A DNA stretch of 23,353 nucleotides from Baffinella frigidus (lineage: Eukaryota; Cryptophyceae; Cryptomonadales; Baffinellaceae). The stretch is from assembly GCA_026770585.1 (NCBI GenBank), contig MU646513.1:283395-306747 (forward strand). Direction: 5' to 3'. This document shows positions 1,743 through 23,353 of the stretch, piece after piece (the first letter of the stretch is position 1; the number at the start of each line of letters is the position of its first letter). The notes under the pieces are model-generated. The model was not told where the DNA came from. It saw only the letters and a list, made by a program, of their open reading frames with translations, and ran no database searches. Both the position numbers and the translations under genes were made by a program.

Positions 1743-2326
1743 CAGGGGCAACCCGCGGGGGGGGGGTTGCCCCGCAGGCAGGTCCCAGCTCTGTCTTGCG
1801 AGCCTCGGTCGGACAGGTGATGAGCTCCGATGGTTGACTCATCAAGGTATCTTAGACTCTCTCCTCCTAAGCGGGGTCTCATGTCTCCCATGAGTCGATT
1901 CGGTGTCACCAGTTTGGCGAGGCCGGGCTCATTTTCGCCCCCAAGTCCCTGAGGTCCTTTAGGTTCTTTTAACTCCCACCATCGGCGAAAACCGGAACTG
2001 GTTCTGTAGAAAGGCCATGCTTCCTTTCGAAGTTGACTGATTGGTCCCACACACCCAGCATGTCAACTTAAGCATGCACACGTGCGCTTCCCACTCCTCG
2101 GGTTCTGTTCTAAACCCCCTGATAATTGGCTTTGGCTAGAAAAAGTGTTGGATTCCGACACCTAACGATCCATTTCCCATAACTTTATGTCACGATTATC
2201 CACCTTCGGAAGCCAAAAGCGCATCGGCTGGCGCTTAAAAGCCATTTTATGCACACCACCTGCCGTTTCACCCCACACGCGTTTTAAACTACACCCCCAC
2301 GCAGGCTCCGAGTCAAGGCTTGGGCT

Positions 2327-2617
2327 TGGAGCCGAATTTAGCCGTGAGGCTAAATGGAGGTCCGCCTGGGAGATTCCGCCCAGGGTCTCTCAACACTGGC
2401 GCCCTACAGGAGTACCTCGCTCATAAGGAAGCGCCTCCCCCTAGGACCCTACAGTAGGCCTATGCGTAGGGCCCTACGGTGGTCCTAGGGGGGGGGTGGT
2501 TTCTTATGCGCGAGGTACCCCTGTAAGCCCTAACTCTTGACGCCGAACATAGCCTTGATGCTAAATCGAGGTCCGCCTGGGAGATTCCGCCCAGGGTCTC
2601 TCAACACTGGCGTCCTA
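2327..2617 (-). repeat. Tandem copies of the end of ankyrin exon 11 and its downstream sequence
   Basis: Two ~85-bp units (2327-2404 and 2526-2617) share TCCGCCTGGGAGATTCCGCC and CAGGGTCTCTCAACACTGGCG. Each begins, on the plus strand, with a diverged copy of the exon 11 end. The unit at 2532-2570 still reads FGVKS-stop on the minus strand. A family A MITE at 2405-2525 separates them. Confidence 0.7.
2405..2525. mobile_element. MITE family A, copy 3
   Basis: Terminal inverted repeat TACAGGAGTACCTCGCTCAT / CGCGAGGTACCCCTGTA. It sits between two ~90-bp direct repeats derived from the end of ankyrin exon 11 and downstream sequence. Confidence 0.82.
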
Positions 2618-2621
2618 AGCG

Positions 2622-2711
2622 CTAACTCTTGACGCCGAACTTGGCCTTGAGGGCGTCGAGATCAGCCTTGGAGATTCCGGCGAGCGTGGCGTCCTCCGCG
2701 CCCGGGCCCAC
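2622..2711 (-). CDS. Ankyrin gene exon 11 (terminal, stop TAG)
   Basis: Acceptor gattgcag precedes 2711. It encodes VGPGAEDATLAGISKADLDA, then LKAKFGVKS and stop TAG (2624-2622). A Lys-rich amphipathic helix ends the protein. The 3' untranslated region probably runs into the repeats at 2327-2617. Confidence 0.72.
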   Translation of the reverse strand: MGPGAEDATLAGISKADLDALKAKFGVKS

Positions 2712-5700
2712 CTGCAATCCAATCAGTCAAATGCCTTCCTGTAATGTGGCGCCTTGGGGCACACCTGAGATGACACACGAGGGTCACGTTACCAGAAGAA
2801 CACACACGCAAACAGGGGTGCGTCCTCCGCACCTGGGCCCACCTGAGATGACACACGCGAGTCACGTTACAGGGATACCTTTCTATCCCTTAAGTGGCGA
2901 GTAGGCTCATACGCCCTACGGTAGGGCCCTAGGACCTGCCTAGGACCTCTTCCGGGTCAAATTCGACCCGCTCGCCACTTAAGGGATACGTTAGCGCCCT
3001 GCTTCGACCGTGCGTGTTTCCAGCATACAAGGGTACCTCGCTCATAAGACCCCCCCTCCCCCCCGTAGGATCACCATAGGGCCACAGCCATAGGCCTACT
3101 GTAGGGTCGTAGGGGGGGGCGGTTTCTTATGGGCGAGGTACCCCTGTACCAGAAGAACACACACGCAAAGAGGGTGCCGTCCTCTGCGCCAGGGCCGACC
3201 TGAGATGACACACGCGAGTCACGTTACCAGAAGAACGAAGCCGTACAGGGGCACCTCGCTCATAAGGAGCCGCGCGCCCCCCCTAGGACCACCGTGGGGG
3301 TAGATAGGCCTACCGTGGGGTCCTAAGGGGGTGCGCCTCCTTATGAGGGAGGTGAACCTGTGTTGGATAAACCCGTGCCACCGCAACGTCCTGGACATGT
3401 CGTGTACTATCCCGTAAGTGACCAGTAGGCTCATACGCCCTACCGTAGGGCCCTAGGACCTGCCTAGGACCTCTTGGCCCTCAAATGTGACGGCATGACC
3501 ACTTAAGGGATAGGTTCTTCAGGTTCTTTCAACTCCCACCATAGGCGGACACTGGAACTGGTTCTGCAGAAAAGCCCTGCTTCCGTTTGATCGCATCAAG
3601 CCTCCCCGACACAACAAAACGGTGCTTGCGGCCATGTTTCATCTCGGAGGATAACTGAATCAGTTCCTTTTTATTAGGAGGTTGAATAGGAGAAATAAGT
3701 AAGGGCATAGTAAATTTAATCAGGCCTCCAAATTAAATGAAAACGCTAATTAGGGAACTGATTCAGTTATCTTTCGAGATGATGTTGGTGTTCACAATCA
3801 ACGGGAGCTCTGAGTTGTTTGGCGCTTAGGTCCTAGTCTTACAAGGCTTTCACGCAAGGGACTTCAGGGCTACCTCGCTCATAAGAAACTGCCCCACCCC
3901 TAGGACCACTGTAGGGCCCTAGGAATAGGCCTACTGTAGGGTCCTAGGGGGGCGCGGTTTCTCATGTGCGAGGTACCCATGTACATGGTGGACGTGTTGG
4001 TTTCGATCCGCAATCTCTTAAGTGGCCAGTAGGCTCATACGCCCTACCGTAGGGCCCTAGGACCTGCCTAGGACCTGACGGAGGTTAATTTTGACCCCCT
4101 GGCCATTGAAGGGAGAGAAGCACTTTTCGCTCTCTCTCGGCAGAAATGCGACCTTGGTTGGTTTCGATCCGTAATAAACGCACGTCTCTCTCTCTCTCTC
4201 TCTCCCTCCCTCCCTCTGTCTCTCCCTCTCTCTCTCTCCCTCTCTCTCTCTCCCTCTCTCTCTCCCTCTCTCTCTCGGCGGGGACGTGACCTTGGAGAAG
4301 CGAGAGTCGTCGGCGCGAAAATCCTCCCAGTCGCCCTGCCGCACGGGGTAGTGTTTAGGATCAGGCCCAGTTACCACTCGGTGCACCACGGACCTTTCAA
4401 CAGAAGTCAACTTGCCCACAGATAATTAACTTTAAGGATTTTCTGGTGTCAATTTTGACACGTACCACCCCAGAATCGGGGCCAAAATTCAAATCCGAAA
4501 CCCTTGAAGCCCCCCCCCCCGAGTGGACCGTTGTTTTGCCCTGCCGCGCTCACAAGGGATGCTCGCGGTAGTAGCAAACACGGTTTGGTACGAGGTTTTT
4601 GGACCGCCCTAGCCACACGGTCGACTACGAACCTTTCATTAAAAGTCAACTTACCTGAAGACAATTGACTGAAGGATTTTTCTAATGAAAATTGGTCACG
4701 TAACACCCCGGAATCCGGGGTCAACGAAAGCCTAGTTAGGAAAGTGCGGTAGGCACATTCCTAGATGCTTCCCAGTCGCCCTGCCCCGCTCACACTCTTG
4801 TTTCAAATCTCATGCGGAAAGTCTTATATATGATAAAGCTGGTCTCAATGAAAATTACTACACGTTTGTTTAATATTACTAATAAAGATTGTCCAGAGTA
4901 GCACATTTCATTGAACCACTTTCATAATTTAAAAGACTTTCGATATGAAATCGGTCGCGATAGAGTCGGTCACGCTGGGAGCGCGTTTCCCTCGCACGTC
5001 CCCACACAGCGGACTTCGAAGGAATTTTGAATAACCCCTAAGCGATAAGACCTATAGGACCCTACGGTAGGCAACCCGTAGGGACATAGGGGGGTTTCCA
5101 TGTATAAGGTAACGGAAAAGTGGCCCAGTTTGGGCCGAAATTCCCTTTGTAGCCCGCTGTGTCCCTTGGGCACACCATTTCTTCGTACAGTATCGACGTT
5201 ATCCCATAAGTGGCGAGTGGGCTCATACGTCCTACAGTAGGGCCCTGGGACCTGCCTAGGACCTCTTTGCGGTCAAATTTGACCGCATCGCCACTTGAGG
5301 GATATACGTCGTATATTATACGATCGTATATTATACGATCTTCCCTCAGTAAAGCAATGAGCGACGGTTGGAGTTTCGGGTTCAGGGGGTTTAGGAGGTT
5401 TAGGGGTTAGAGGGGTGGGGTCGACCTCGTCCTCTGTCCACCAGGGAGCGGTCAACGGCGTACATCTATCATACATTCATTCCTGATACCAACACAGTCT
5501 ACACTTCTATTCTACACCAAGCGAAACACAACAACAAAAAGCTGTAATCAGTCAACTGCCACGCACCTCGTCCTCTGTCCACCAGGGCATTCTTCCTATA
5601 AATGTAGTTACACAGTCTATACATCTATTATACATTCTTTCCTCGTACAGTATTTCGTCTGAACTTCTACTATACAGTCTGTTCGAAGTGTACCGGGGTT

Positions 5701-8700
5701 AGGGTTTATGGGGAACCTCGTCCTCGATCCACCAGGGCGCTTCGGAGCAGACGCAGCTGTTCGAGTAGTCTACAGCGTTCTCCATCGCCAGCAGCAACGG
5801 CGTCTGCAGGGAGGGATTATGGGTGAGGGTTTGGGGGATTGGGGGTTCGGGTTCCAGGCATAGGGTTCAGGGTTTGATGTTCAAGGTTTAGAGAAACGGT
5901 TCTCCATCGCTGACAGGATAAAAACTCCGAGCACTTCGAGTAGTCTACAGCGTTCTCCCTCGCCAGCAGCAACGTTGTCTGCCGGTGATTGTTCAGGGGT
6001 TAGGGTTTATTGTGTAGGGTTTAGGATTTAGGGGTTAGGTTTTTATGGTGCAGGGTTTGTGGTGCAGGGTTTGGGGTTCAGAATTTGGGTTTAGGGTTTA
6101 GGGTTTAGGGTGTAGGGTTGAGGTTTTAGGGTTTAGGGTGTAGGGTGTAGGGTGTAGGGTTATGGGATTAGGGTTCAGAGAGGACGTTAGGGTGTAGGAT
6201 TTAGGGTGCAGTGTTGAGGGTCTAGGATTTAGGGCTTAGGGTTTAGGGTTTGGGGTGTAGGATTTAGGGTGCAGGGTTTAGGGCAGTGGCGACAGCCAGG
6301 ACAGCCAAAGACGAGTCTTCAGCCGGCACATTAATAGGGTAACGGCCTGAAAATGGGGTAGTTAGGCATACGGCATTACCTAGGACCTCCTACCGTAGGC
6401 CGAGGGATCCTAGGACCAAAAAGTCTCGGCCTACGGTAGGAGGTCCTAGGCAATGCCGTAGGGCTAACTACCCCATTTTCAGGACGTTAGCCTATGAACA
6501 TGCGTCTTCTCCAACTGACGAGACATCCAAGAGTAGTAACGAAGACGATGGATCGGACCTTCGACCTCCCTCCCGCCGCGCGTGCAGAAGAAGGTGAAGA
6601 AGAACAAGAACAGGAAGAACGAGAACAAGAAGAACACGAATACGAAGCAGAAGAGGAAGAAGAAGAAGTATGTTCCGAGATACCTCCTCGTAAGGGCCTT
6701 GGGATAGGGGTCAGACCTTAGCGCCCACCTCCCTCCCGCCGCGCGTGAAGAAGACGGTGAAGAAGAAGAACACCAACAACACGAACAGCAAGACGAAGAA
6801 GGTGAACATGAAGAAGCAGAAGAAGATGATGATCAAGAAGAAGGTGAATAATTATAAGAAGAAGAAGAGGAAATCGCTGGGCGAGGGGTCAGACCTTAGC
6901 GCCCACCTCCCTCCCGCCGCGCGTGAAGAAGACGGTGAAGAAGAAGATGCAGAAGCAGAAGAAGAAGCAGACTAATAATAATACGAAGAAGAAGAAAAAG
7001 AAGAAGTATCCTGAAGATTTGCGCCACCCCGTGAGAAATCGTTGGGCTAGGGGGTCAGACCTTAGCGTCGACCTCCCTCCCGCCGCGCGTGGCGCCCGCG
7101 TCCAGCAGCCAGTCAATCTGCCCCAGGAAGGGGGGTCAGGGCGTAGGTTTTAGGGTGTAGGGTGTAGGGTGCAGGGTGTAGGGTGTAGGGTGTAGGGTGT
7201 GGGGTGTGGGGTGTGGGGTGTGGGGTGTGGGGTGTGGGGTGTAGGGTTCAGGAAGCTCGTAGCACGAGGTCCAGCAGTCAGTCCATCTGCCCCAAAGAAA
7301 GATCGTGAGCTTGACCCAACTTCGGTTGAAGAGAAGTTCTAATGAATATGCAGTATTGGAGACTACGGTAGGCCCTGTGGCTCCTACCGCCGGCGTTGAT
7401 GAGACAGTCGATCTGCCCCAGGACGGAGGGTTAGGGCGTAGGGTGTGAGTTACTTCACAAAATGTGAAAATAAATATAAATATTCAATAATAGGGTGTAG
7501 GGTTCAGGGAGCTCGTAGCACGAGGTCCAGCAGCCAGTCGATCTGCTTCACAAAGGGCAGTTACGGCGTAGGGTGTAGGGTGGTGCTACCAGCGCCCTAC
7601 ACCCTACACCCTACACCCTACGCCCTACACCCTACACCCTACGCCCTACATCCTACCACAAACACCCTACACCCTACACCCTACACCCTACGCCCCTATA
7701 CCCTATACCCTACACCCCACACCCTACACCCTACACCCTGCACCCCACACCCTACGCCCCAACCCCCCTTCCTGCGACAGCTCGACTCCCTCCCGCCGCG
7801 CGTGGCGCGGGTTTAGGGTTTCGGGTCTAGGGTTTAGGGTTTCGGGTTTCAGGTTTAGGAGGGTTTAGGGTTTGGGACGTACCGTATTGGCGTGCACGAA
7901 GTTGGCCGCGACCTGATAGTGAGATATGGCGCTGTGACCTAAACCCCAAACCCCAAACCTCAAACCCTATGTAAATAGAGTAACGGACTAAAAATGGGGT
8001 AGTTAGGCCTGCGGTATTACCTACGGTAGGCCGTGGTTTTTTTCGTAGGAGCCCCCCTATGCCCCTACGGCCTACCGTAGGAAATACCGTAGGCCCAACT
8101 ACCCCATTTTTAGTCCGTTAGCCTATGAATGTAAGAGGGCGGGTAGGACGAACCGTGTTGGGGTGCACGAAATTGCTCATGGCCGCGACGTGTAGCAGCC
8201 CCTCTCCATCTGCCGGGACCTGCACCAAGGCATCGCATCTCAGCACATTCGCACTTTTTGTTTTTGTTGGGCAGTGTTTTTGTTGGCCGGTGTTTTTGTT
8301 GGCCGGTGAGGATGTAGGTAGGGCGCGCGCGTCTGCGCCGAAATTGCGGAGTCGTGCGCTGCCTCACTTCTTACCTTATCGTACCTTTCCCCTTACCGTA
8401 CCTTACCTACTTCCCTACCTATACTTCTATTAACCTACCTATACCTTACCTCTATCTCTATTAACCTACCCGCCTTGGATGCATCATAGCGCTGCCTCAC
8501 TTGCGTTGCCCGCATTTTCTCAAGTTGCCAACCTCGATCCGAAGTACAAATCCGCCAACTTTGGCGCGGGAACGAGCCCGGGGGAAGCAGATTGGTGGGC
8601 CCAAATAGACTGTCAGACAGCGCTACCACACGGTGGGCTACGAAGGCTTCGTTGGGGCTGGAATTCAGGGTGTTACGTGTCCAAATTGCACCAGAAAATC

Positions 8701-10472
8701 CTTCAAGTTAACTGCCTCAAGGCAAGTTGACTTTTGGTGAAAGGTTCTTAGCCCACCGTGTGGGGGGCAGGACCGCGCGGGCGTCGGCGCCGAAGTTGAG
8801 GAGGAGAAGCGTCGTCGTGCGCTGCCCTGCCCCCCGCATACGTGCAGTTAGTTACTCGGTGCAAGACAGTAACCCCCATATCATGCATTTAGTTAGCCAT
8901 GTGTCTGTCCGCGGCCGGTCAGCGCCTACTACCTACTACCGTGAGCGTTCGCCAACGGCTCATTTGCCAACGGCTCAAAGGGAACACGCTGGCATCGACA
9001 GCAGTACCGTTTGCGAAGGCGGAGAAGAGGGGCGTGCGTCCCGTGATGCTCTCTCTCTTCAAGAAAGGTCTCTCTCCCCCTCCCTCTCCCTCCCTCTCCC
9101 TCTCTCTCCACCTATATGTCTCTCTCTCTCTCTCAGCAGTACCGTTTGCGACGGCGGAGAAGAGGGGGGTGCGTCCCGTGATGGTCCGCGCCTCGAGCGA
9201 GGCCCCATGCGCCACCAACGCTCTCACCTGTGGACGACTTATCTTCACGATATCGTAAACATATCGTGTGTTCTTTCTATATTTCTGTTTACGATATCGT
9301 GAGCATATCGTGTGTTCCGTGTGTACCGCCATCGCGATATGCCACGTCCTACCCCCCAGGTTCCGCGCCGCAGGCCAGCGCCCGCACCTGCACCACTTTC
9401 GATTCACCTTTGCCAATACTCCAGACCTAAGCCTGCACTTCTCGCCCTCGTGACACGACACCGTGGCGCCCGGAATCACAAACCCGGCGTGATCCCACAC
9501 AGTGGGCTTCGAAGGAGCCTTCGACCAGGAATCTGGTCGAAATGTTAATTACCACGCCAGAGGGATGGAAACATCCACTTTTGACATCTTTCAAGGGAAA
9601 GGCATTGAATTCTGAAGTCAACCACGCCAGATGTTACGTGGATAAGGCGTCGGGTTCCCTCGATCATTCTGGCGTGGTGATAAGATGAGAAGTCTCCAGC
9701 GAGGCCCCGTGCGCCACCAGCGCTCTCACCGAAAGTAATTGAGAAGAAGAAGAAGAAGAAGAAGCAGAAGAAGAGGAGGAAGAAGAAGCAGAAGAAGCAG
9801 AAGAAGCTTACCGCAGTGGTTCAGCCCTTCCCGGCAGTGATGTGCACCAGCAGACACCCTAACCTCGGCATCAAACAGGTTCCAGCACCCATGGTAGTCA
9901 AGCCGATCACTTAAGTCGATCACCAGTTGCTCATTTTCCAAAAGGATGTGCGGGTGATACAGAGAAAGCGGAAACCTGCCGCAGTGGGTTTCCTCTTTGC
10001 ACATCGCAAACATCACCCTCTGAGGCTCATTCCCTTCCACTCATCTCTGAGGCTCATAGACTTTCGGACCACCCATCTCCGGGCGTGAGAGTAACAAGGA
10101 AGAAGAAGGAGAAGAAGGAGAAGAAGAAGGGGACGAAGCGTAACAAAGAAGAAGGAGAAGAAGCGTACCGCAGTGGTAGCACCCTTCCCGGCGGCGATGT
10201 GCAAAGCTGTGACGCCCGCTCGCGTCTTCGCCGTCACTTCCGCGAGCCTGCGCACCGAGAGAAAGAGAGAGAGAGAGAGAGAGTGCGTGAGAGAGTGTGT
10301 GTGTGAGAGTGTGTGTGTGGGTGTGTGAGAGAAAGAAAGCGTGAGAGAGTGTGTGAGAGAGAGGTGCCTTCAGTACGTGGCGGGCGTGCTGGCATTACTA
10401 AATGCCTCTCGCCTGGCCTCTGGTACCCGTCCCGGAGGCGATGTGAGAGACCTGTATTTACAGAGAGAGAGC

Positions 10473-10508
<36 letters not shown>

Positions 10509-12958: not shown

Positions 12959-13308
12959 GCTGCCTCTCTCGCGATTCTTTCGTCAAGGAAAGGTGTTCCC
13001 CACCACCAGAGCACCTACAGGTCGCGTCCGTGTTAAGTTGAAGAAAGGGAGGGAGGCGAGGGACGGAAGGAGAGCGAGGGCCACTCCACGAACGAAAACG
13101 ACTCTGAAAATGGCTCCAACACTCACGTTGACTTTACGGCAAAAGTCAAAATCCGGTTGAGGAGCAGATCGAGAATGGAGCTTGAGCCATTTCTTGGGCA
13201 GATTTTCGGAATTCCGAAATTCGGTGTCGACTTTTGGCGACAAAAGGCTGTTGACTAATCCAAAGGTCAACCCCCACGCGAGGTCCCCGCCTCAGCGAGG
13301 AAGGGAAG
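12959..13308. promoter_or_regulatory. Presumed bidirectional promoter and 5' leaders of PRP19 and the ankyrin gene
   Basis: The 350 bp between the two divergent start codons contain no ORF with family similarity and no MITE. I see no clear TATA box. There is a purine-rich stretch around 13035-13085, a related pair of tracts near 13133-13160 and 13222-13270 (ggcaaaagtcaa / gtcgacttttggcga), and a short palindrome cggaattccg at 13206-13217. Core-promoter positions cannot be read from sequence alone. Confidence 0.5.
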
Positions 13309-13480
13309 ATGAGCGCTCTAGTATGCGCCATGTCGGGCGACCCGCCTGTCAAGCCGGTCGTCTCGCGCAAGTCGGGCCACATCTTCGAGCATGCTGTCAT
13401 CGCGAAGTACCTGCTCGAGACCGGCAGGTGCCCAATCACGGGCCAGGAGCTGGCGGCAGCGGATCTCATCGACCTCAAGG
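13309..13480 (+). CDS. PRP19: PRP19 exon 1 (start, U-box)
   Basis: Begins at ATG 13309 and encodes [18 protein letters not shown] through ADLIDLK plus one base. The donor is g|gtattc at 13481. An internal ATG at 13330 (residue 8) is less likely, because the residues before it match the conserved N-terminus of the family. The U-box is a RING-like fold without zinc ligands; the CPITGQ segment is its conserved Cys-Pro-[IV]-Thr-Gly loop. Confidence 0.93.
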
Positions 13481-14776
13481 GTATTCCCCCCCCGCCCGTC
13501 CAGGCTCAGCTCCCCCCACCAGTCTCTCTCAGGCGGCGCCGTGGCCGATCTGCCGTCGCGCGCGGCTCTGTTTGTTTTGCGAGGGCATGGCCGCCAGTTG
13601 GTTCACCAGATTGGTGCCCGTGTTGACGTCGTGCGGGTGGCGCAGCGAACCCGGAGGTGAAGCCCAAGCCGGTGTCGGCGACGAGCCTCCCGGGGATGAT
13701 CGGCGCGTTTCAGACAGAATGGGACGCGTCCGTGATCGAGACGCACATGCTGCGCAAGGAGCTCGAGCAGGTGCGGCGGCTAGCCCCATCCGCGGGAAAG
13801 TTCAGGTCTCGGAGCCAGGCGGCTGCTTCCAGTTCGGATCCGAGAGTTCCCTCTCGTGTACCCATCCTATGGGGAGCTGATGAGGATTCCGGGCTCCAGG
13901 CTGGACTCGGTGCCGTCGTGCATGGCGGGACCCCCTTTTTTTTGTCCTACTGCCTCCAACTTGTTCATGCAGGCAGGGTTCTCATCCGCTTGTTTCCCAA
14001 TCCCCCCTCTCTCTCCCGCGAACTGACCCCGCCCGGATTAGTCGCCGCCCCGCTGCGAACACGCCCTGCACGGATCAGTCAACCACCGCGTGCCGACGGG
14101 TGGCATCCCTCCTGGTACAAACCCTGCCCGGACCAGTCACCCGCGGACCCCAGCGCGCAGCTACATGCTGTACTGACTGCGGCGGCTGACTGCTGACGTG
14201 GGGCTGACGGGGGGGCGTCTTGTTCGCAGGTACGGAATGAGCTGGCGCACACCCTCTACCAGCACGACGCCGCGTGCCGCGTGATCGCTAAACTGATCCA
14301 GGAGCGCGACGCGGCGGTGGCGGTGGCCAACGACCCCGCGCGGCGCGCCGCGCCCGCCGGCGACGCCATGGAGGAGGACGGCATCCCGGAGGTGGTGAAG
14401 GAGCGGATGACAGAACGGTCGCAGGAGCTGTCCAAGGGGCGCAAGAAGCGCCCCGTGTCGGAGCTGCTGGCGGGCGAGGCTGCGATCCAGGCGAGTTCAA
14501 TCAAAACTGCGATCACCGATTTGCCTCTGTCGAAATTGGGATCGCCGATTTGATGGGCCGGGGCTCTTTTCCTCTCCAACGTTGACGATTTTGTGCCGTA
14601 CACCCAGCATGTCAACTTGAGCAGAGTCGGGCAACCTGAGTGAGGCAGATCTGGGTGGTTCTCTATCCACGCAGAAAGGGACGGTTGACTGAATTTCCCT
14701 TTCCGAGGGACCACGCCAGCGAGGATCCCGCCTCTAGGAAACCCTACACCCCACACCTTAACCTTGATTCTAAACC

Positions 14777-14808
<32 letters not shown>

Positions 14809-15195
14809 ACCCTGAATTCATAGAGAGCAAGCGAGAGGGTCAGACCCCGCCGCAGGGAGGGCCGCGGGAGGGTCCACGTTGGGGTTTAGGGGATAGGGTT
14901 TGACGTCCACGTTAGGGTTGAGGGGTTTTGGTCCACGCATAGCACTCAGCAATCAGGAGGCGTTGTCTCCTGGGCCCTGCTGCGCACCGCGAGCTAGCAC
15001 CTCATAGCACTCACAGGGCCCCCCTTGTAGGCTCCACTGACTGAGGTCCACAGGGTTTAGGGGTTACGGTTTAGACATTGGTAGTAGACCCTCCCACGCC
15101 TCTCCGTGCGGGAATAACCCCCCCACCCCCGCTTCCGGTACGAACCCGCACAGAACGGTGCGGGGGTTTACTGGGTGTGGCTAAATAAATAAATA

Positions 15196-15287
<92 letters not shown>

Positions 15288-18200
15288 AACCGGCGTACGG
15301 GGATCTCCGTGTCCGCATGCGTTCATGGACTGTCGTACATCTCTCATACCTTCCTTTAGAATAGATGTATTGATTAATAGATGTCAAGGCTCGAGGGCCC
15401 ACCATCCCTCTAGAATGGGAGGAAATGCTCTTTGTCGAGACCCGTGATTTTCACACGGCGGACTTCGAAGGGATTTTGAATAACCCCTAAGCGACAAGGC
15501 CTAGGACCTTACGGTAGGCATCCCGTAGGACTATAGGGGGGTTCCTTCGAATAAGGTCACGGAAAGGTGGCCCGATTCGGGCCGACAATCCCTTCGTAGG
15601 CCGCTGTGTGGGTACATGAGGTCGAAAGACCTCGCCGGAATCCGATTCCGTCGACCTCCAGTAAAAATCAGGGTTTTAAAAGGGTGATTTGGACCACGAC
15701 GAAGGTTGGTGGTACGGGGGGAGGCATGTTGCGTGCGATCCGACTGAATAAACAAACGCGTAGCCCAGGTGCCCTCAAATCCTAGTTACTCTACTTTCCC
15801 TTGAAACCCTAAAAGCAGGTGCCCCGAAACCCAAAACCCTAAATTCCCTAAAACCTCAAACCCTAAACCCTAAATCCCCCTCTCACCCAGGCGTGCACGG
15901 ACGCGACGAAATTCCAGAACCCAGAAACCTTGAACACTTGAAACCCTTGAACCCTAAACCCTCAACCTGAAACCATAAACCATAAACCATAAACCATAAA
16001 CCGTAAACCCTGTAAACCTTAACCCTAAACCCTCAACTCCAAACCCCAAACCCCAACCCCCAAACCCCAAACCATACACACACCTCACACCCTAAACTCT
16101 AAATAAATCTCTGAAGCCCTAAACCCTAAACAAACCCTAACCCCCAACCCCTGACCCCAGGCGTTCAAGGAGGCAGCGAAGTTCGCAGCGCACCAGAAGA
16201 AGGCGGCGACGAGCGTGGCGGTGCACCCGAAAAACGAGTCCCTCGTCCTCTCCGCCGACACCTCGGGTACCCCACCCCCCTAACCCCAACCCAGGCTTTG
16301 TTTCCCCTGTTCCGGAACTTCCTTCACTTTAGGAAACTCGTCGTCCCACTTTAGCCAACGCGTCGTAAACCCTAAACCCTAACCCTGAACCCTAACCCTA
16401 AATCGCTACAGGCGCGGCGGTGATCTGCGACCGTGCGACGGGCAAGGCCGCGGTTCCCATCGTGGGCCACAAGGCCTCCATCACACACGCCATCTTCCAC
16501 CCTACCCAGGTCCTCATCCTAACCCCTGCACACCTGACCCTTAATCCCTAAAATCCCTAAATCCTGAACCTCATTCCAACCCCTACCCACCTTACCCTTG
16601 ATCCCTAAAACCCCTAAATCCTGCACCGGGCGCGAGTTAGGGTTCAAGGTTCAGGGTTCAGGATTTCAAGGGCTTGCGTTTAAGGTTCAGGGTTTGCGTT
16701 TTTGATGTTCAGGGTTCATGGTTCAGGGTGTAAAGGCCACAAGCCCTACATCACACACGCCGTCTTCCATCCCACCCAGGTGGAAATCGAGAAGTGATCG
16801 CTAAATGGCCAAAGTGGGTGTTGTTCGGGGCGAGAACGTGTGCGTTACTGAGAGCAACAGCTTCGCACTTTACTGAGCTAAACAGCTCCAATCACTGGGA
16901 GCAACGGCTCCAATTACTGAGAGGAATGGCTCTAATGACGCGACGGCTCCAATTTAATTTCGGAAGAAGACAGAGTCTGTCCCGCTATCTTAGGCTTCCG
17001 ACGCCGAAGATAAGGGTTTATACGCTATTTTAGGCATACAATGATGCTATCTTATGCCTTTTTATGTGCATAAATTCTGGTATGTTCCGAGTTGAAATTA
17101 CTGAAAGAAATGGCTCCAACGGCAGGACGTGATCTTCACGGCCTCGAAGGATTCGACGGTCAAGATGTGGTCCGCGCAGGGGAAGCAGATCCATTCATTC
17201 GGAATGCACAAGGTCTGTCCCACTCTCTTCGAAGAGCTGAAAACATTTTATCTCAGATTTGCGTTGGGCTTGGAGCCATTTCTGAGCTTTACTAACTTTT
17301 TAGGGATTCAAATACCTGGTTTTGTACCAGAAATTCTTTAGATAGACACCTTGCGAAATAGAATCTGTTGTGGTCCGCGCAGGGGACCCACTCATTCGGA
17401 ATGCACACGGTCAGCTCCACGCCAGAGGGCTCGAAACATCCACTTTTGACATCTTTCGGGGGCAATCTCCTGGATACTCAAGTCAACGACGCCAGATCTG
17501 GCGTGGATAAGGCGTCCATTTCCCTCGAGCCCTCGGGCGTGGCTACTTCAGCCGGGGCAATTGAAATGCCACCCGCGCCACTTGAAAAATCGTTTTTTAT
17601 TTTTATTTCAAGGTTCTTGAGAGGTGGGGGGGGGCTAGCGCTGCCTCAATCGGGTTGACTGTCAGACTATCATCAAGTTGATATGCTGGATGTGCGTTAC
17701 AAATATGTCAACTTTGGAGCGGGAAAGAGCCCTGGCGCACCCACTAACTTGGTGAGCCCAGACAGACTGAAAAAGAGCTAGAACAAGGTCCGCTGCTTCA
17801 CCCGCGCCACTTGAAAAACTGTATGCTACATGACCCTTGAATCGACGATTTGCGGGTGAAGCTGAATTCGCACGCTCCAGTCCCAACCCCTGAAGCCTTT
17901 GCCCCACAACAGGGGGAGGTGTCCGGGGTGTCGGTGCACGCAACAGGCGACTACATTGTCTCGACGTCCACGGACAAGAGCTGGGCCTTCTGCGATATCG
18001 AGCAGGGCAAATGCCTCCAGCTAGTCCAGGTCAAGCTCCCACGAATTTAGACTATCACCCAGGGCAAAGGACTCCAGCTAGGTCAGGTGCGGCCACCACC
18101 ACTTGAGGCTGGGAGAAGGGACTATTTTTGAACCCTGCTGGACCCTGCTGGCACATGCCTGCAGCTTGTCCAGGTGCGACTTAGGGTTGAGAGTTGTGTG

Positions 18201-21132
18201 GGTGTAGAGGTGCAGGGTTTATGGTTGACACTTTATTGGTCCGAGAGGGCGATATCGCCTTCTCGGACCAAATGCCTGCAGCTACTCCAGGTGAAGCTCC
18301 CACGGATTTCGACGGAACACTCCGTGATTTAATGGCGGTTGAGGATACGTGGTTGGCTACAGTAGGGACCACGGTAGGCCGTAGGGCACATGCCTCCAGC
18401 TAGTCCAGGTGCGACTTTTGCGTTTGGGGTTGAGAGGTGTTGGGTTGAGAGGTGCAGGGTTTAGGAGTTTGTGATTTACACTTTGCAGTTGGTCCGAGAA
18501 GGCGACATCGCGCAGGGCAAATGCCCGCAGGTAGTCCTCCAGGACCACGGTAGGCCGTAGGGCACACGCCTCCAGCTAGCCCAGGTACGGCTCCCGCCCC
18601 ACGACTTGCTCGCAAAACTCGTCGATCCGATGCCAGTTTTCGGTACGGGATTGGCCACGGTCCACACAGAGAGAGGGCTACCAAGGGGGTTTCGGCCCAA
18701 ATCGGGCCACCTTTCCGTTGCCTTATCCGTAGAACACCCCCCACGTCCCCACGGGTTGCCTACCGTAGGGTCCTAGGTCTTATCGCTTATGGGTTATTCA
18801 AAATCCCTTCGAAGTGCGCTGTGTGGGGCTACGGTGGGCCGGGACACCCCTGCAAGAGAAAGTCAACACCTCTGCGCCAGAAAGTTGGCACCTCCCTCGT
18901 GTGTTTCACAGGGGGACATTTCTGCAGGGCTCAGCGCCTCAATGGAGCACACACAGTCATCACCTCTGCGCCAGAAAGTTGACAGCTTGTGTCTGGCTTT
19001 CACAGGGGGGCATCAGCGGAGGGTTCTCGGCGTGGACGGTGCACCCAACGTCAGCAGAAAGCTGAAAGAGAAATGTCTGCCTTTCACAGGGGGACATTTC
19101 TGGCGAGTTCTCGGCTTCTTCGGCGGAGTGTTGACAGCTCGTGAAAGAAGCTCGTGTGTTTCACAGTGGGGACGCCTGCCATGCTGAAAATGTTGTGATG
19201 TTTGCAGGGGGACATCAGCGGAGGGTTCAGCGCCTCGATGGTGCACCCCGACGGGCTGATCCTCGGGAGCGGGACCACGGACGGCATGGTGCGCATCTGG
19301 GACATCAAGTCCCAGCAGGTGCGCCACACCCAACCCGCGAACCCTTCTATTTTTCGAACCCTATACCCTTTAGGGTGCGCACCCTAAACCCTTTGGTGCG
19401 ACCCCGAAACCCGAAACCCTAAACCTGAAACCTGAAACCTGAAACCTGAAACCCTAAACCCTAAACCCTAAGCCCTAAACCCTAAACCCTAAACCCTGAA
19501 CCCTGAACCCCAGACAGTAAAACCTAACCCAAAACAGACAGTGACCCCTTACCCAGAACAGAGTAAACCCAAACAAAATCAACAAAATCAAAAAAGAAAG
19601 TAAACGCCACGCCCAAAGTAAATCCCCACACCTGAAAAACAGAAGGTGGTGTCGTTGACGGGGCACGGCGGGGCGATCAGCTTCGCTCTGCTTCAAACTC
19701 TCAACTCCAAACCTCAAACCCCAAACCCTGATCACCCCGCGCCCCAAAATCAGACCCTGCACCCCAACCCCAGAAATCAAAAACGTGAACCCTAAATCAA
19801 AACGTGAATCCAAGAAACCCTCAAAGATGACAACGTGAATCGAAGAAACCCTGAAACAGAACGTGGTGTCGTTCACGGGGCACGGCAGGGCGATCGGCTC
19901 GCTCTGCTTCTCTGAGAACAAACCCCACGATCAGACACGAAACCCTAACCCGAAACAGAGAGTAAAACCTAACCCAAAACAGAGAGTAACCCCTAACCCA
20001 AAACATAGAGTAACCCCTAACCCGAAACAGGGCAAACCCAAACAAAACCAAAAGCGTTTCCTTGCTGTTTTGGGGTTTGGGCGTAGCGTTTAGGGTTTAG
20101 GTTTACTAAACCCTACACCCTGAAACAGAACGTGGTGTCGTTCACGGGGCACGGCGGGGCGATCGGCTCGCTCTGCTTCTCAGAGAATGGCTACTACTGC
20201 GCGACCACCTCCTCGGACGGCTGCAAGGTCAAAACCCTAGACCCGAGATAGCATAATCCACCCTTAAGATAGCATACTCCACCCTTACGGTAGCATACTC
20301 CACCCTTACGGTAGCACGATCGGCTCGCTCTGCTTCTCGGAGAATGGCTACTACTGCGCGACCAGAGAGATTGATAATTTATTGCCAAACAACCAGCGTC
20401 AGCGCCGCACATGCTACGCATTGTGCCACTTACTGTACCCCGTGTCGGCCGCTCATACGAGCATTTTCCGGATGGATTCCAACTCCACCTCCTACCAACT
20501 ACTGCGCGACCACCTCCTCGGATGGCTGCAAGGTCTGACTCTTAAACCCTAGACCCTGTACCGCACACCCTACAACCTAAAACCTAGGGTATAGGGGTAT
20601 AGGGGTCAGGGTATAGGGGCCAGACCCTGAACCCTGCGTGACCACCTCCGACGGCTGATCATCCTCTGTCTTTGTTATTACCCTAGCCTTTTGAAAGGTG
20701 ATCAACTACCTCTACCTACTACTGCTTGCTTCCGAGGGCGGGCGTGGCTCCCTGCCTAGATCCCTGAACCCTCAATCATAGACCATAGACCTTAGACCAT
20801 AGACCATAGAACCTAGACGATGTTCCCTATACCTGACCCCTGCACCCTCATGAAGGGTCAGATCCCAGACCTTGCAGATCCCAGATCTTGGGCTGAACCC
20901 TCAACCATGAACCCTTTACCCTGTACCCTCAAGCCAAACCCTGCGGCCTTAACCTAAAACTAAACCCCGAAAACTGTAACCCTAAACCCTACCCCCTGAA
21001 CACCGAACACCAAACACCAAACACCAAACACCAAACACCAAACCCAAAACCCAAAACCCAAAACCCAATCCCCAAACCCCAAACCAGGTGTGGGATCTGC
21101 GCAAGGTCGCGAAGCAGGGCGCCAACGCACAG
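13309..21132 (+). CDS. PRP19: PRP19 pre-mRNA-processing factor 19 (U-box E3 ubiquitin ligase, WD40), 3' end beyond window
   Basis: Nuclear E3 ubiquitin ligase that scaffolds the Prp19/NineTeen complex and activates the spliceosome. I joined exons 13309-13480, 13646-13770, 14230-14490, 16161-16266, 16412-16509, 17126-17212, 17913-18029, 19208-19318, 20129-20227 and 21088-21132. They total 1221 nt and give 407 residues with no stop. Residues 1-~65 are the U-box ([22 protein letters not shown]). Then come the conserved [12 protein letters not shown]...FQTEWD linker and the coiled-coil signature [14 protein letters not shown] (~105-125). From ~187 on are WD40 blades, including [39 protein letters not shown]. 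The start fits the family, whose proteins begin with a short M-x-C-x-I-S-like segment directly before the U-box. Family members are ~500-525 aa, so the last ~90-100 residues are missing. Residues such as [13 protein letters not shown] look plant-like. Identification is very secure; individual junctions are inferred from frame and AG/GT. Confidence 0.95.
13646..13770 (+). CDS. PRP19: PRP19 exon 2 (linker and start of coiled coil)
   Basis: Acceptor cgcag ends at 13645. The first two bases complete an Ala codon with exon 1. It encodes [26 protein letters not shown] and HMLRKELEQ. The donor is gtgcgg at 13771, phase 0. Confidence 0.9.
14025..14145. repeat. Three-copy minisatellite in PRP19 intron 2
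   Basis: cccgcccggattagtcgcc, ccctgcacggatcagtcaac and ccctgcccggaccagtcacc, spaced ~40-55 bp. The other parts of intron 2 (13771-14229) show nothing recognisable. Confidence 0.55.
14230..14490 (+). CDS. PRP19: PRP19 exon 3 (coiled coil and linker), probable GC donor
   Basis: Acceptor ttcgcag ends at 14229. It encodes [20 protein letters not shown], then an Ala-rich acidic linker, then [20 protein letters not shown], the conserved patch preceding the WD40 domain. The exon probably ends at ...GEAAIQ with the donor CAG|GCGAGT, a strong GC-AG type. No better GT lies nearby in frame before the stop at 14551. Confidence 0.88.
14743..14940. repeat. Telomere-like repeats, both orientations
   Basis: 14743-14815 is CCCTAAA/CCCTCAA (sense-strand C-rich). 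14880-14935 is TTTAGGG (opposite). Confidence 0.75.
15183..15284. repeat. (AAAT)n then (TA)n microsatellite
   Basis: A short aaataaat run leads into about 42 perfect TA units. On either strand it yields a meaningless Tyr-Ile ORF. Confidence 0.95.
15453..15609. mobile_element. MITE family C, copy 3
   Basis: Termini CACACGGCGGACTTCGAAGG / CCCTTCGTAGGCCGCTGTGT. Same interior as 5004-5161. It lies in PRP19 intron 3. Confidence 0.8.
15784..16157. repeat. Telomere-like CCCTAAA repeats before PRP19 exon 4
   Basis: Degenerate ccctaaa, ccataaa and ccccaaa repeats on the sense strand, running directly into the exon 4 acceptor. They act as the C-rich tract of that acceptor. They are interrupted at 15891-15917 by an exon 4 edge copy. 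Confidence 0.85.
15891..15917 (+). pseudogene. 5'-edge copy of PRP19 exon 4
   Basis: cacccag|GCGTGCACGGACGCGACGAA then ATTCCAG resembles the true ccccag|GCGTTCAAGGAGGCAGCGAA then GTTCGCAG. It lies 270 bp upstream of the exon. Confidence 0.7.
16161..16266 (+). CDS. PRP19: PRP19 exon 4 (first WD40 blade)
   Basis: Acceptor gaccccag ends at 16160. It encodes [20 protein letters not shown], then [15 protein letters not shown] and one base of a Gly codon. The donor is gtaccc. It follows exon 3 in phase 0, and the D-x-S end of a blade is complete with exon 5. Confidence 0.9.
16412..16509 (+). CDS. PRP19: PRP19 exon 5 (WD40)
   Basis: Acceptor gctacag ends at 16411. It encodes [20 protein letters not shown] and [12 protein letters not shown]. 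The GH...FHP pattern is a WD40 blade start. The donor is gtcctc at 16510, phase 0. The intron to exon 4 is only 145 bp and carries no echo copies. Confidence 0.9.
16510..16734. repeat. Telomere-like degenerate repeats, mixed orientation
   Basis: cctaacccctgcacacctgacccttaatcc-type text to 16625, containing a ~60-bp imperfect duplication (16545-16625 repeats 16512-16565). Then ttagggttcaaggttcaggg in the opposite orientation. Confidence 0.65.
16735..16779 (+). pseudogene. 3'-edge copy of PRP19 exon 5
   Basis: Reads [15 protein letters not shown] plus GT, against [15 protein letters not shown]|gtcctc in exon 5. It lies downstream of exon 5 and has a usable donor (gtggaa). Confidence 0.85.
16844..17125. 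repeat. ctgagagcaacggctccaa minisatellite leading to the exon 6 acceptor
   Basis: At least five ~25-bp units (16844, 16873, 16899, 16916, 16940) are variants of actgagag.aa.ggctccaa. The last copy (17099-17122, actgaaagaaatggctccaa) is the acceptor region of exon 6 itself. A second repeat, gctatcttaggc (16983, 17022, 17045), lies between. Confidence 0.7.
17126..17212 (+). CDS. PRP19: PRP19 exon 6 (WD40)
   Basis: Acceptor acggcag ends at 17125. It encodes [20 protein letters not shown] and [18 protein letters not shown]...MW is the typical D-x-[VI]-x-[IVM]-W end of a WD40 blade. The donor is gtctgt at 17213, phase 0. Confidence 0.92.
17370..17409 (+). pseudogene. 3'-edge copy of PRP19 exon 6
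   Basis: Reads [13 protein letters not shown] then gtcagc, against [15 protein letters not shown]|gtctgt. It has a two-codon deletion and is otherwise near-identical. It lies downstream of exon 6, next to a family E MITE. Confidence 0.85.
17416..17543. mobile_element. MITE family E, copy 4
   Basis: CCACGCCAGAGGGCTCGAAA to TCGAGCCCTCGGGCGTGG, with GCCAGATCTGGC in the middle. It lies in PRP19 intron 6, right after the exon 6 echo. Confidence 0.82.
17636..17780. mobile_element. Inverted-repeat element family F, copy 3
   Basis: TAGCGCTGCCTCAATCGGGT to GACTGAAAAAGAGCTA. It shares ATCAAGTTGATATGCT and GTGAGCCCAGACAGACTG with the copies at 8487 and 12340. Confidence 0.6.
17913..18029 (+). CDS. PRP19: PRP19 exon 7 (WD40)
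   Basis: Acceptor cacaacag ends at 17912. It encodes [20 protein letters not shown], then [26 protein letters not shown] and SWAF.DI..G are conserved in this blade of PRP19. The donor is gtcaag at 18030, phase 0. Confidence 0.93.
18059..18584 (+). pseudogene. Six 3'-edge copies of PRP19 exon 7
   Basis: Copies end at 18086, 18173, 18290, 18408, 18542 and 18584. All are variants of gggcaaatgcctccagctag then tccag, most followed by gtgcgac, gtgaag or gtacgg. The copies at 18250-18290 and 18503-18542 start further inside the exon (gatatcg.., gcgacatcgcgcag). The 18290 copy also carries ~20 bp of following intron (gtgaagctcccacg.attt). Confidence 0.85.
18664..18824. mobile_element. MITE family C, copy 4
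   Basis: Reverse-oriented copy ending ATCCCTTCGAAGTGCGCTGT. It lies in PRP19 intron 7, between the exon 7 echoes and the exon 8 echoes. Confidence 0.78.
18912..19175 (+). pseudogene. Three or four 5'-edge copies of PRP19 exon 8
   Basis: After a cacag acceptor, 18912-18952 reads [14 protein letters not shown], 19006-19049 [15 protein letters not shown] and 19090-19120 [10 protein letters not shown]. 19168-19182 is a weak fourth. The intron-side flank (ctctgcgccagaaagttg, then tttcacag) is copied too. All are upstream of the real exon (19208). Confidence 0.88.
19208..19318 (+). CDS. PRP19: PRP19 exon 8 (WD40)
   Basis: Acceptor gtttgcag ends at 19207. It encodes [20 protein letters not shown], then [17 protein letters not shown]. 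The HPDGLI.G.G block is diagnostic of PRP19. The donor is gtgcgc at 19319, phase 0. Confidence 0.93.
19370..19620. repeat. Telomere-like CCCTAAA repeats, PRP19 intron 8
   Basis: ccctaaa and cctgaaa tandem repeats on the sense strand to about 19520. After that comes a related gacagtaa.cc.aaccca repeat that also reappears at 19955-20040. Confidence 0.8.
19643..19920 (+). pseudogene. Two 5'-edge copies of PRP19 exon 9
   Basis: 19643-19694 reads [12 protein letters not shown] after aaacag, with an indel later. 19860-19920 reads [20 protein letters not shown] after gaaacag, nearly perfect for 60 bp before diverging. Both are upstream of the real exon at 20129. Confidence 0.9.
19955..20110. repeat. 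gagagtaaaacctaacccaaaaca tandem repeat
   Basis: Four ~24-27-bp units (19956, 19983, 20008, 20028) of agagtaa.ccctaaccc.aaac. They are followed by a short inverted telomere-like segment (20073-20105). Confidence 0.7.
20129..20227 (+). CDS. PRP19: PRP19 exon 9 (WD40)
   Basis: Acceptor gaaacag ends at 20128. It encodes [20 protein letters not shown], then [21 protein letters not shown]...D is the PRP19 signature. The donor is gtcaaa at 20228, phase 0. This is the only full-length version among at least five related copies. Confidence 0.93.
20247..20317. repeat. ~21-bp minisatellite, 3 units
   Basis: Three units of gatagcatactccaccctta (variants gtagcat...cg), just after exon 9 and before its first 3' copy. 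Confidence 0.8.
20317..20657 (+). pseudogene. Three 3'-edge copies of PRP19 exon 9
   Basis: 20317-20365 reads [16 protein letters not shown] (interior of the exon). 20497-20532 reads [11 protein letters not shown] plus the donor gtctga. 20638-20657 is a short scrap, tgaccacctccgacggctga. All lie downstream of the exon. Confidence 0.85.
20760..21086. repeat. Telomere-like and accaaac repeats before PRP19 exon 10
   Basis: agaccata repeats near 20778-20815 and ccctgaacc/ccctcaacc variants. Then caccaaacaccaaa and aaacccaa arrays (21001-21085) run into the acceptor. Confidence 0.8.
21088..21132 (+). CDS. PRP19: PRP19 exon 10 (WD40 blade end)
   Basis: Acceptor aaaccag ends at 21087. It encodes [15 protein letters not shown], continuing SDGCK from exon 9 to give the canonical KVWDLRK. 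The donor is gttgtg at 21133. No convincing next exon is visible in the remaining 2.2 kb. Confidence 0.88.
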
Positions 21133-21331
21133 GTTGTGAGCCCCTCTCATACGTATATTGGGATGTATATGGGGAAATGCCGTGGGCGGCGTTGGTGCCG
21201 GCGACCGTTGAAGGTGCAGGGTGCATGGTCCGCTGACGAGCAAAGCGGGGACAACTTGGAACGTTAAAAGTCATGTTACCTGAAAGCCAAGGTCGCATAT
21301 CGATCGACCTTGACTGTCTTGCACGTGCCAG

Positions 21332-21471
21332 CGGTATGGGTGAAAATGCCACAAGAAATCAGTGGCAAAAACTGGTGTATGCCCGAATAAAGTGTTTAGG
21401 GTGTAGGGTTGATGATGTACGGTCGAAAATTCCACAAGAAATCCGTGGCAAAAACGCCCATTTGTGTATGG
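21332..21471. repeat. ~50-bp direct repeat pair
   Basis: gtatgggtgaaaatgccaca then agaaatcagtggcaaaaac (21334-21372) and gtacggtcgaaaattccaca then agaaatccgtggcaaaaac (21418-21456), each followed by a tgtgtatg-like tail. They lie in PRP19 intron 10. Confidence 0.75.
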
Positions 21472-21504
21472 CACGGAGGGTGGTGGGCGCTGCAGGAGTG
21501 AGCA

Positions 21505-21627
21505 TACAGGGGTACCTCGCTCATAAGAAACCGCCCCCTCCTCTAGGACCCTACAGTAGGCCTGTGCCTAGAGCCCTATGGTGGCCCTCGGGGGGAGGCA
21601 GTTTCTTATGAGCGAGGTACCCCTGTA
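21505..21627. mobile_element. MITE family A, copy 7
   Basis: Near-canonical copy (TACAGGGGTACCTCGCTCAT / ATGAGCGAGGTACCCCTGTA). It lies 10 bp before an exon 10 edge copy in the last visible PRP19 intron. Confidence 0.82.
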
Positions 21628-21636
21628 GGCTTCAAA

Positions 21637-21671
21637 CGCGCAAGGTCGCGAAGCAAGGCGCCAACGCATAG
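21637..21671 (+). pseudogene. 3'-edge copy of PRP19 exon 10
   Basis: cgcaaggtcgcgaagcaagg then cgccaacgcatag|gttgtgagcccc, versus the true ...gccaacgcacag|gttgtgagcccc. The last codon became TAG. The copy extends 12 bp into the intron and lies downstream of exon 10. Confidence 0.9.
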
Positions 21672-21859: not shown

Positions 21860-22000
21860 AGGAACCCTCAACCCTAAACCCTAAACCCCAAACCCTAAAC
21901 CCTAAACCCTAAACCCGAAACCCTGAACCCTAAACCCTAAACCTAAAACCTAAAACCTAAACCCTAAACCTTAAACCTAAACCCTAAACCCTAAACGAGG
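21860..22000. repeat. CCCTAAA telomere-like array
   Basis: Good tandem ccctaaa with ccccaaa and cctaaaac variants on the PRP19 sense strand. Confidence 0.88.
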
Positions 22001-22820: not shown

Positions 22821-22824
22821 AACC

Positions 22825-23353
22825 TTAACCCTACACCCTAAACCCCAAACCCTGAACCCAAAACCCCGAACCCTAAACCCTGAACCCCAAACTAGAACCC
22901 TAGACCCTAAACCCTGAGCCCTGAACCCTGAACCCTGAACCCTGAACCCTGAACCCTGAACCCTGACCCTGAACCCTGAACCCTGAACCCTGAACCCTGA
23001 GCCCTAAACCCGGAATCCGGAACCCTAAACCTTCAACCCTGAACGCTGAACGCTGAACCCGGAACCCCAAACCATAAACCCTAAACCCTGAACCCTGAAC
23101 CCTGAACCCTAAACCCTAAACCCGGAACCCGGAACCCTAATCCCTAAACCCTAAAGGTGCGGGTCGGGACGGGGGCCGCGCATCGATGGACCGGTGAAAC
23201 CCTACACCCTACACCCTACACCCTACACCCTACACCCTACACCCTATACCCTACACCCTACACCCTACACCCTATACCCGACCGTCGCTAAACCCTACAC
23301 CCTACACCCTAAACCCTAAGCCCTAAACCCCAAACCCTGAAACCCTAAACCCT
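22825..23353. repeat. CCCTGAA / CCCTAAA / CCCTACA telomere-like arrays to the window end
   Basis: Near-perfect ccctgaa (22916-23000), mixed variants, then ccctaca (23197-23275), all with the C-rich strand in PRP19 sense orientation. A non-repeat island at 23156-23198 (ggtgcgggtcgggacggggg...) reads ASMDR just before a GT. It might be a scrap of the final PRP19 blade, where family members have SMDR. Confidence 0.85.

Follow-up and report, generated by a model that had tools for sequence, protein, structure and literature searches.

The stretch of DNA considered here, hereafter the window, comprises 23,353 nt of contig MU646513.1 of the Arctic cryptophyte alga Baffinella frigidus (GenBank assembly GCA_026770585.1, forward-strand positions 283,395 to 306,747; designated G000:C211:283395-306747 in our analysis, within an assembly of 382 Mb). 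It carries two genes, one encoding a PRP19-like protein and one encoding an ankyrin-repeat protein, whose introns contain degraded, partial duplicates of sequence from the edges of the exons beside them. An initial annotation of the window had called attention to these exon echoes, and we examined them in the window and in other genes of this one genome. The exons of the two genes, abbreviated P1-P10 (PRP19) and A1-A11 (ankyrin), are as follows in gene order.

13309-13480, 13646-13770, 14230-14490, 16161-16266, 16412-16509, 17126-17212, 17913-18029, 19208-19318, 20129-20227, 21088-21132, + strand: PRP19-like gene, 10 exons
12680-12958, 12448-12558, 11021-11088, 10169-10247, 9143-9227, 8774-8826, 8154-8219, 7073-7117 (to 7061 in the deposited model), 5717-5803, 4291-4335, 2622-2711, - strand: ankyrin-repeat gene, 11 exons

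Both gene models have an open reading frame and GT/GC-AG introns. The ankyrin model is 99% identical to the deposited Baffinella protein, from which it differs by four residues at the end of exon 8, and the deposited Baffinella PRP19 (P0001) shows 98% identity across 97% of the spliced window model.

Every exon was compared with the whole window, with an expectation value (E) of <=0.05 as the main threshold. At this threshold, exon sequence has 38 direct copies within the introns next to it or immediately beyond the end of the gene, and a single match elsewhere (E 0.011); the adjacent introns make up, on average, 9% of the window. The initial annotation had put the number of copies at roughly 40. 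At E<=0.01 there are 35 adjacent matches and 0 elsewhere in the window, and at E<=1 there are 42 and 26, respectively. The strongest copy, that of PRP19 exon 9, reaches E 6e-19. The opposite strand yields 2 matches at E<=0.05, one 18 kb off and one overlapping its source exon, and the latter is the only such match within an adjacent intron. Chance similarity is ruled out by this locality (35/35 adjacent at E<=0.01) together with the same pattern in other genes.

The copies are also ordered. Thirty-four are anchored at an exon edge, and the other 4 of the 38 are internal. Among the anchored copies, 13 represent a 5′ edge and lie upstream, 20 represent a 3′ edge and lie downstream, and 1 represents a 3′ edge and lies upstream, so that 33/34 fall on the side named in the initial annotation; none of the 38 contains both edges of its exon. 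Self-comparison of the window therefore gives matches that exceed background and do not lie at random sides of exons. The copies are given below with the matched part of the exon in brackets and with identity and E where noted; upstream and downstream refer to gene order.

16735..16779, + strand: P5 3′ edge (54-98), downstream; E 2e-10
17369..17407, + strand: P6 3′ edge (41-85), downstream; E 5e-7
18150..18173, + strand: P7 3′ edge (94-117), downstream
18269..18290, + strand: P7 3′ edge (96-117), with intron flank
18383..18408, + strand: P7 3′ edge (92-117); 96%
18502..18537, + strand: P7 (80-115), downstream
18559..18584, + strand: P7 3′ edge (92-117), downstream
18912..18950, + strand: P8 5′ edge (1-39), upstream
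19006..19046, + strand: P8 5′ edge (1-41), upstream
19643..19694, + strand: P9 5′ edge (1-51), upstream; E 2e-13
19860..19918, + strand: P9 5′ edge (1-59), upstream; 97%, E 6e-19
20308..20364, + strand: P9 (23-79), downstream, the first half of an exon copy that a mobile element interrupts; E 2e-15
20366..20490, unstranded: young 125-bp element resembling a short interspersed element (SINE), within the P9 copy and bracketed by a 15-bp duplication
20498..20532, + strand: P9 3′ edge (65-99), the other half of the interrupted copy; 97%, E 2e-9
20634..20657, + strand: P9 (69-95), downstream
21638..21671, + strand: P10 3′ edge (12-45), with 12 nt of intron flank; 94%, E 9e-9
11152..11170, - strand: A3 5′ edge (1-19), upstream
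10792..10817, - strand: A3 (30-55), downstream
10740..10763, - strand: A4 5′ edge (1-24), upstream
10523..10577, - strand: A4 5′ edge (1-55), upstream; 93%, E 1e-15
10425..10445, - strand: A4 (47-67), upstream, extending the 10523..10577 copy (9-nt overlap) on the other side of a (TC)n insert
9812..9846, - strand: A4 3′ edge (45-79), downstream
9694..9729, - strand: A5 5′ edge (1-36), upstream, lacking AG
9008..9068, - strand: A5 3′ edge (26-85), downstream; E 4e-12
8323..8351, - strand: A6 3′ edge (24-52), downstream
7883..7915, - strand: A7 3′ edge (28-66), downstream
7786..7808, - strand: A8 3′ edge (23-45), wrong side (upstream)
7511..7542, - strand: A8 5′ edge (1-33), upstream
7255..7286, - strand: A8 5′ edge (1-33), upstream
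6907..6925, - strand: A8 3′ edge, downstream, in an array of ~170-nt units
6729..6747, - strand: A8 3′ edge, downstream, in the same array as 6907..6925
6566..6584, - strand: A8 3′ edge, downstream, also in the array of 6907..6925
5930..5974, - strand: A9 5′ edge (5-49), upstream; 93%, E 4e-12
5567..5588, - strand: A9 3′ edge (66-87), downstream
5426..5449, - strand: A9 3′ edge (64-87), downstream
3170..3199, - strand: A11 5′ edge (1-30), upstream
2820..2842, - strand: A11 5′ edge (1-23), upstream, with 28 nt of flank in common with the 3170 copy
2530..2597, - strand: A11 3′ end (25-90), stop codon included, downstream and past the end of the gene; E 1e-11
2325..2386, - strand: A11 3′ end (25-84), second copy, past a palindromic element

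Copies at the threshold derive from 14/21 exons, namely P5-P10, A3-A9 and A11, and none was detected at E<=0.05 for A1, A2, A10 or P1-P4. P4 and A10 had also been counted as copied exons; at these two, weak copies are seen by eye. The suggestion that the process acts at every exon does not hold, either here or among the exons tested elsewhere in the genome (25/56, see below). The introns of 121, 145 and 165 bp lack copies at the threshold, as had been noted. They are not peculiar in this respect, since PRP19 introns of 459 and 1670 bp lack them as well. Copies in the window are 19-66 nt long (to 90 nt or more elsewhere in the genome), and their identity ranges from 73 to 100% with a median of 89%. 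So wide a range indicates that the duplication process is long-running, and it may be continuing today.

The splice dinucleotide is usually kept, AG in 12/13 of the 5′-edge copies and GT in 16/20 of the 3′-edge copies (ankyrin exon 11, which ends at the stop codon, being left out). Homology continues into the intron flank beyond this dinucleotide, with a score of >=5, in 19/34 copies versus 72/530 (14%) mismatched pairs. The proposal that the duplicated unit spans the splice junction accordingly describes about half of the copies and does not extend to all.

To look beyond the window, we took exon segments from a profile search, using 10/10 matches to chaperonin PF00118 and 46/108 matches to protein kinase PF00069. 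The kinase segments are not a random sample, as they come from 22 regions each picked for at least 2 profile matches (one was trimmed to one). The segments are profile matches rather than complete gene models and may include a few that are copies in their own right. After 30 low-complexity matches had been dropped, 25/56 segments, spread over 16 contigs, had a local direct copy (24/56 under a stricter repeat filter and with one shorter locus). The 50 direct matches comprise 19 copies of a 5′ edge upstream, 21 copies of a 3′ edge downstream, 9 internal matches and 1 copy of a whole segment, so that edge-anchored copies number 40 on the expected side and 0 on the wrong side. Inverted matches number 27 versus the 50 direct ones, and all 27 fall within nucleotides 79-122 of one segment, which we judged to be repeat-like. 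Exon echoes are therefore not special to the two genes of the window, and the concern that they might be restricted to these genes is set aside. Assembly error is also unlikely, given that the copies are diverged (73-100% identity), that many have other sequence between copy and exon, and that those outside the window occur on 16 contigs.

Pairs of low divergence are the most informative about how a copy arises. In five of them (P9, 97%; C1170, 98%; C1237:11412, 98%; C1237:12634, 97%; and C671:44290, 100%), ~60-200 nt of non-duplicated sequence, here termed filler, lies between copy and exon. At C1170:10417 the two versions of a 58-nt stretch made up of 8 nt of intron and 50 nt of exon are 98% identical and are separated by ~94 nt of unrelated sequence, and at C1237:11412 a stretch of ~57-60 nt occurs twice, also at 98%, with about 115 nt between. 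At both loci flank homology stops 8 nt outside the exon. The C1237 filler is one member of a dispersed family. A first look gave 1092 candidates for this family; the 40 that were scored match the filler over most or all of its length, and the 20 of these that were read reveal a longer element with inverted ends. The filler is thus a mobile element in this one searched case; it is ~41 nt short at the left, and it is on this side that it directly meets the duplication. In the family, 8/20 copies are bracketed by direct repeats of 24-65 nt versus 1/60 mismatched flank pairs, and inverted repeats outside the element bracket 2/20. On our reading, the direct repeat abuts the left-truncated end in L058, L060 and L063. 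Other fillers differ: that of C1170 has 20 candidates in the genome, mostly partial matches, and others have the look of telomere-like repeats, of simple repeats or of sequence without a class. Where a further event is nested inside a copy, it has left a short overlap (9 and 15 nt).

The echoes are probably, with considerable room for doubt, those traces of local duplicative insertion, a frequent event in the Baffinella genome, that exons make visible. A break whose ends have come apart, or a copying step in repair with the same effect, would leave two direct copies of ~20-100 nt flanking trapped filler, and this filler varies, from simple or telomere-like repeats to an inverted-repeat element that has been truncated and sequence of other kinds. 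A duplication wholly within an exon would break the gene, and the event would be lost; purifying selection would in this way account for the missing within-exon events. A duplication across one splice junction would leave the exon with an intact copy and the intron with a partial one, and the intron would grow. Copies of 5′ edges would hence come to lie upstream and those of 3′ edges downstream, and a copy that crosses the junction would carry the splice dinucleotide and some flank. Break repair as the mechanism is our inference. The recurrent local tandem duplication first proposed fits in part: the copies are local, direct and often junction-spanning, and exon integrity fixes the result, but many are not bare head-to-tail units, and in several of the least diverged pairs ~60-200 nt of filler intervenes.

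Exon integrity bears directly on the order of the copies. Unique non-exon windows from the same loci, which may hold undetected exons, have 106 copies on the expected side versus 121 on the other side, whereas exon segments in the same run give 38:0 (Fisher P 1e-11). Looser non-exon controls, open to the same reservation, give 532:443 (second control, all windows) and 806:540 (first control). Order as a generic property of any local repeat here is rejected by the 106:121 result in unique windows. A used exon cannot hold a duplication breakpoint and a random window may, and a duplication of one edge leaves a copy on one side only. Local duplication together with exon integrity therefore yields the edge order, and a separate sorting mechanism is unneeded. 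The initial annotation had attributed the order to selection against the reverse arrangement, for which there is likewise no need, as the geometry of a contiguous exon suffices. Simulations with arbitrary rates, which show possibility only, agree: with blind placement and intact exons, three settings gave 0-0.12 wrong-side versus 4.1-9.4 right-side copies per gene.

Several observations weigh against an origin in local duplicative insertion blind to exons. Individual insertion events are read from a single genome, in which no allele lacking an echo was seen. The 3′-edge copy of A8 lies on the wrong side, upstream (forward-strand positions 7786-7808). The comparison with the control windows is imperfectly matched, in that 7/56 exon segments pass the same uniqueness filter, the kinase segments being too similar among themselves, and 1 of the 7 has copies. 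In a first simulation, run at lower divergence, there were up to 1.5 wrong-side versus 10.7 right-side copies per gene. Exons also have local copies more often than intron sequence does, at 14/21 exons versus 14/73 unique intron windows in the window (P 7e-5) and at 24/56 exon segments versus 185/727 (25%) unique non-exon windows outside it (P 0.007). Outside the window, 13/35 copies have their outer end within 8 nt of a splice site versus 8.1 expected (P 0.03), in a test that used script-picked splice sites and dropped pairs of <85% identity and the 1/36 pairs without a splice site. The window excess is not easily reproduced by the blind model; one of its settings does give comparable figures, with copies at 3.8/10 exons and 27% of intron windows, and the others give 4.5-5.9/10 exons and ~50% of intron windows. 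Finally, some loci, including C18 and ankyrin exon 8, look like plain repeat arrays with homologous flanks, so that slippage or unequal exchange probably acts as well. With regard to the wrong-side A8 copy, it lies near an inverted repeat (7146-7265 / 7583-7702) that by eye takes in the A8 acceptor flank, which suggests that inversion took part there. The exon excess outside the window is moderate, and because the exon side of a pair hardly changes, old copies stay recognisable, which contributes to the excess.

The excess of copies at exons and the clustering of their ends near splice sites might instead mean that the process prefers the edges of exons, as it would if breaks at splice junctions were caused by transcription or splicing, with introns growing outward from their exon borders by repeated duplication anchored at splice sites. 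We think this improbable; exon-specific targeting is not claimed, nor is it required, 25% of unique non-exon windows having local copies too, and copies ending exactly at splice sites were dropped as a main claim because the excess (13/35 versus 8.1) is weak. Were it true, exon-edge preference would be a splicing-coupled route of intron growth. We give more weight to plain tandem duplication by replication slippage or unequal exchange, in which arrays form across splice junctions and are later separated by insertions and decay, although as a general account it too seems unlikely. In its favour is the kinase exon of C18 (L043, G000:C18, ~3082-4050), the richest echo array seen, with five downstream 3′-edge copies of 91-99% identity and partly homologous intron flanks. 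Ankyrin exon 8 looks like a plain array of ~170-nt units with exon-end copies that are 100% identical, and the copies of ankyrin exon 11 have 28 nt of flank in common. As C18 and ankyrin exon 8 are among the most alike sets and look like arrays, they make plain arrays a stronger explanation and filler-carrying insertion a weaker one. Homologous flanks and unit spacing look present at these two loci but not at C1170:10417, C1237:11412 or C231:415911, and at the first two of the latter other sequence separates a 98% pair whose flank homology ends 8 nt outside the exon.

Transposable elements that insert at exon edges in the manner of introners and leave long target-site duplications could also produce such pairs, since the C1237 filler is a dispersed element with bracketing direct repeats at 8/20 copies of its family, and the C231 filler resembles, by eye only, a palindromic family of the window. 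We regard this as decidedly improbable. Among the 15 copies of the C1237 family scored as full-length, 10 have no bracketing repeat and 5 have a repeat that does not abut both ends; the repeat abuts a truncated end in the three copies cited above, and fillers are heterogeneous. Moreover, the 125-bp SINE-like element (window 20366-20490), which clearly transposes and is very young (1837 first-look candidates, of which 40 were scored at 99-100% identity), makes duplications of just 9-15 nt in 10/11 inspected copies, namely the window copy and 10 of the 40 scored. Transposition of this element makes short duplications; the long echo duplications come from something else, and target duplications of mobile elements are weakened as a source of the copies. 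It is very improbable that the echoes are decayed remains of whole-exon duplications, an idea favoured by the downstream match that spans the whole segment at C1237:12634 (1/50 outside matches). We rejected it because copies lack one edge and are ordered by the edge that they retain (13 + 20 with 1 exception in the window, 19 + 21 with 0 exceptions elsewhere). Equally hard to credit is a function of the copies, in unproductive splicing or as recursive or decoy splice sites, for which selection would retain them. The frequent conservation of AG (12/13) and GT (16/20) would fit such a role, but a splice dinucleotide is inherited anyway if the copied stretch crosses the junction, identity ranges widely (73-100%), copy number varies, and copies are absent at 7/21 and 31/56 exons.

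Local duplicative insertion has a close relative in the literature, so that the statement that no described process behaves in this way needs to be amended. In Daphnia, new introns are attributed to staggered double-strand-break repair with insertion (PMC4202315). The likeness lies in an insertion accompanied by direct repeats, in repeats common to the adjacent exon and in later internal breaks that lengthen introns. In Daphnia the repeats shared with the exon measure 4-12 bp and are found at the far end of the new intron, whereas the Baffinella copies are 19-66 nt (90 nt or more elsewhere), are often multiple, lie on the side of their own exon and occur in introns that we take to be established. 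Direct repeats that bracket inserted DNA are thus found in both organisms (in Baffinella the 98% pairs with filler, and 8/20 versus 1/60 in the C1237 family), and the short 4-12 bp repeat is not found in Baffinella. Compared with those of Daphnia, the duplications are longer, are repeated and are present at 14/21 and 25/56 of the exons tested. Intron gain by tandem genomic duplication also copies an exon segment, and in potato a new intron arose when a segment that spans the boundary between intron and exon was duplicated (PMC4974935). In Baffinella no new intron is made; the copies stay uncrossed within an intron already present, and many are set apart by other sequence. This classical form of intron gain was rejected, the copies being uncrossed and 33/34 of them on their own exon's side.

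Introners, which resemble some of our fillers, are repeat elements that carry inverted repeats and reside in the introns of algae and protists (PMC9860276, PMC7789003). Their target duplications are 3-9 bp for some families (PMC9860276) and their direct repeats 3-5 nt (PMC7789003), whereas the Baffinella duplications are long and variable, fillers are mixed, and the elements that abut duplications are left-truncated rather than intact at their ends. Direct repeats at intron-exon borders have likewise been read as insertion scars; these are 4-30 bp (mean 11.4 bp) and were found by comparing the two borders with each other, and the abstract of that work does not describe ordered edge copies (PMC11782384). 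Among the titles and abstract openings listed by searches of open-licence PubMed Central, none described partial copies of exons that are ordered in this way throughout a genome, and the word intron is absent from the main text of the Baffinella genome paper (PMC9756366). Pattern and protein scans of viral contigs led nowhere, and a pattern scan of prokaryote contigs gave three matches, taken as chance.

Other features of the window include palindromic elements and telomere-like repeats. One palindromic family, ~120 bp with ends ACAGGGGTACCTCGCTCATAAG, occurs at 843-967, 1590-1706, 2405-2525, 3026-3149, 3243-3361, 3863-3983 and 21505-21627 (the last by eye). Further palindromic families are found at 1078-1183 and 2883-2989; at 9550-9678 and 11400-11528; at 5055-5158, 15452-15613 and 18664-18825; and, by eye, at 6335-6490 and 7978-8120. 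Long degenerate telomere-like tracts (CCCTAAA/TTTAGGG) occupy intronic and intergenic sequence at 5991-6283, 7595-7759, 15941-16131, 19403-19535, 21863-21996 and 22823-23353. These tracts often adjoin exon copies and could be filler added at breaks. An Rfam search of the window gave no match.

Two further observations concern PRP19. The start of exon 4 in the deposited protein (P0001) is 4 residues shorter than in our model, and a tblastn search for missing 3′ exons found none, the added stretches reading N. A PRP19 transcript (P0007) labelled MMETSP0986, which we take to denote the CCMP2293 transcriptome, has 50% identity to the window PRP19, a degree of sequence divergence from which it appears that Baffinella may have two PRP19 genes. 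The strains CCMP2293 and CCMP2045 are assigned to one species in the genome paper (PMC9756366).

Introns normally erase their own history. An intact exon provides a fixed reference by which copies can be recognised, placed and roughly dated, and the growth of an intron thereby becomes readable event by event. The echoes offer a natural test both of break repair in a cryptophyte and of how exons survive amid nearby copies of their splice sites. They are also a warning for gene predictors, as the deposited PRP19 model runs into the intron past exon 9. The Baffinella genome exceeds that of Guillardia theta about sixfold in size (534.5 versus 87.2 Mbp; PMC9756366), and intron growth by duplication may help to explain why it is so large.

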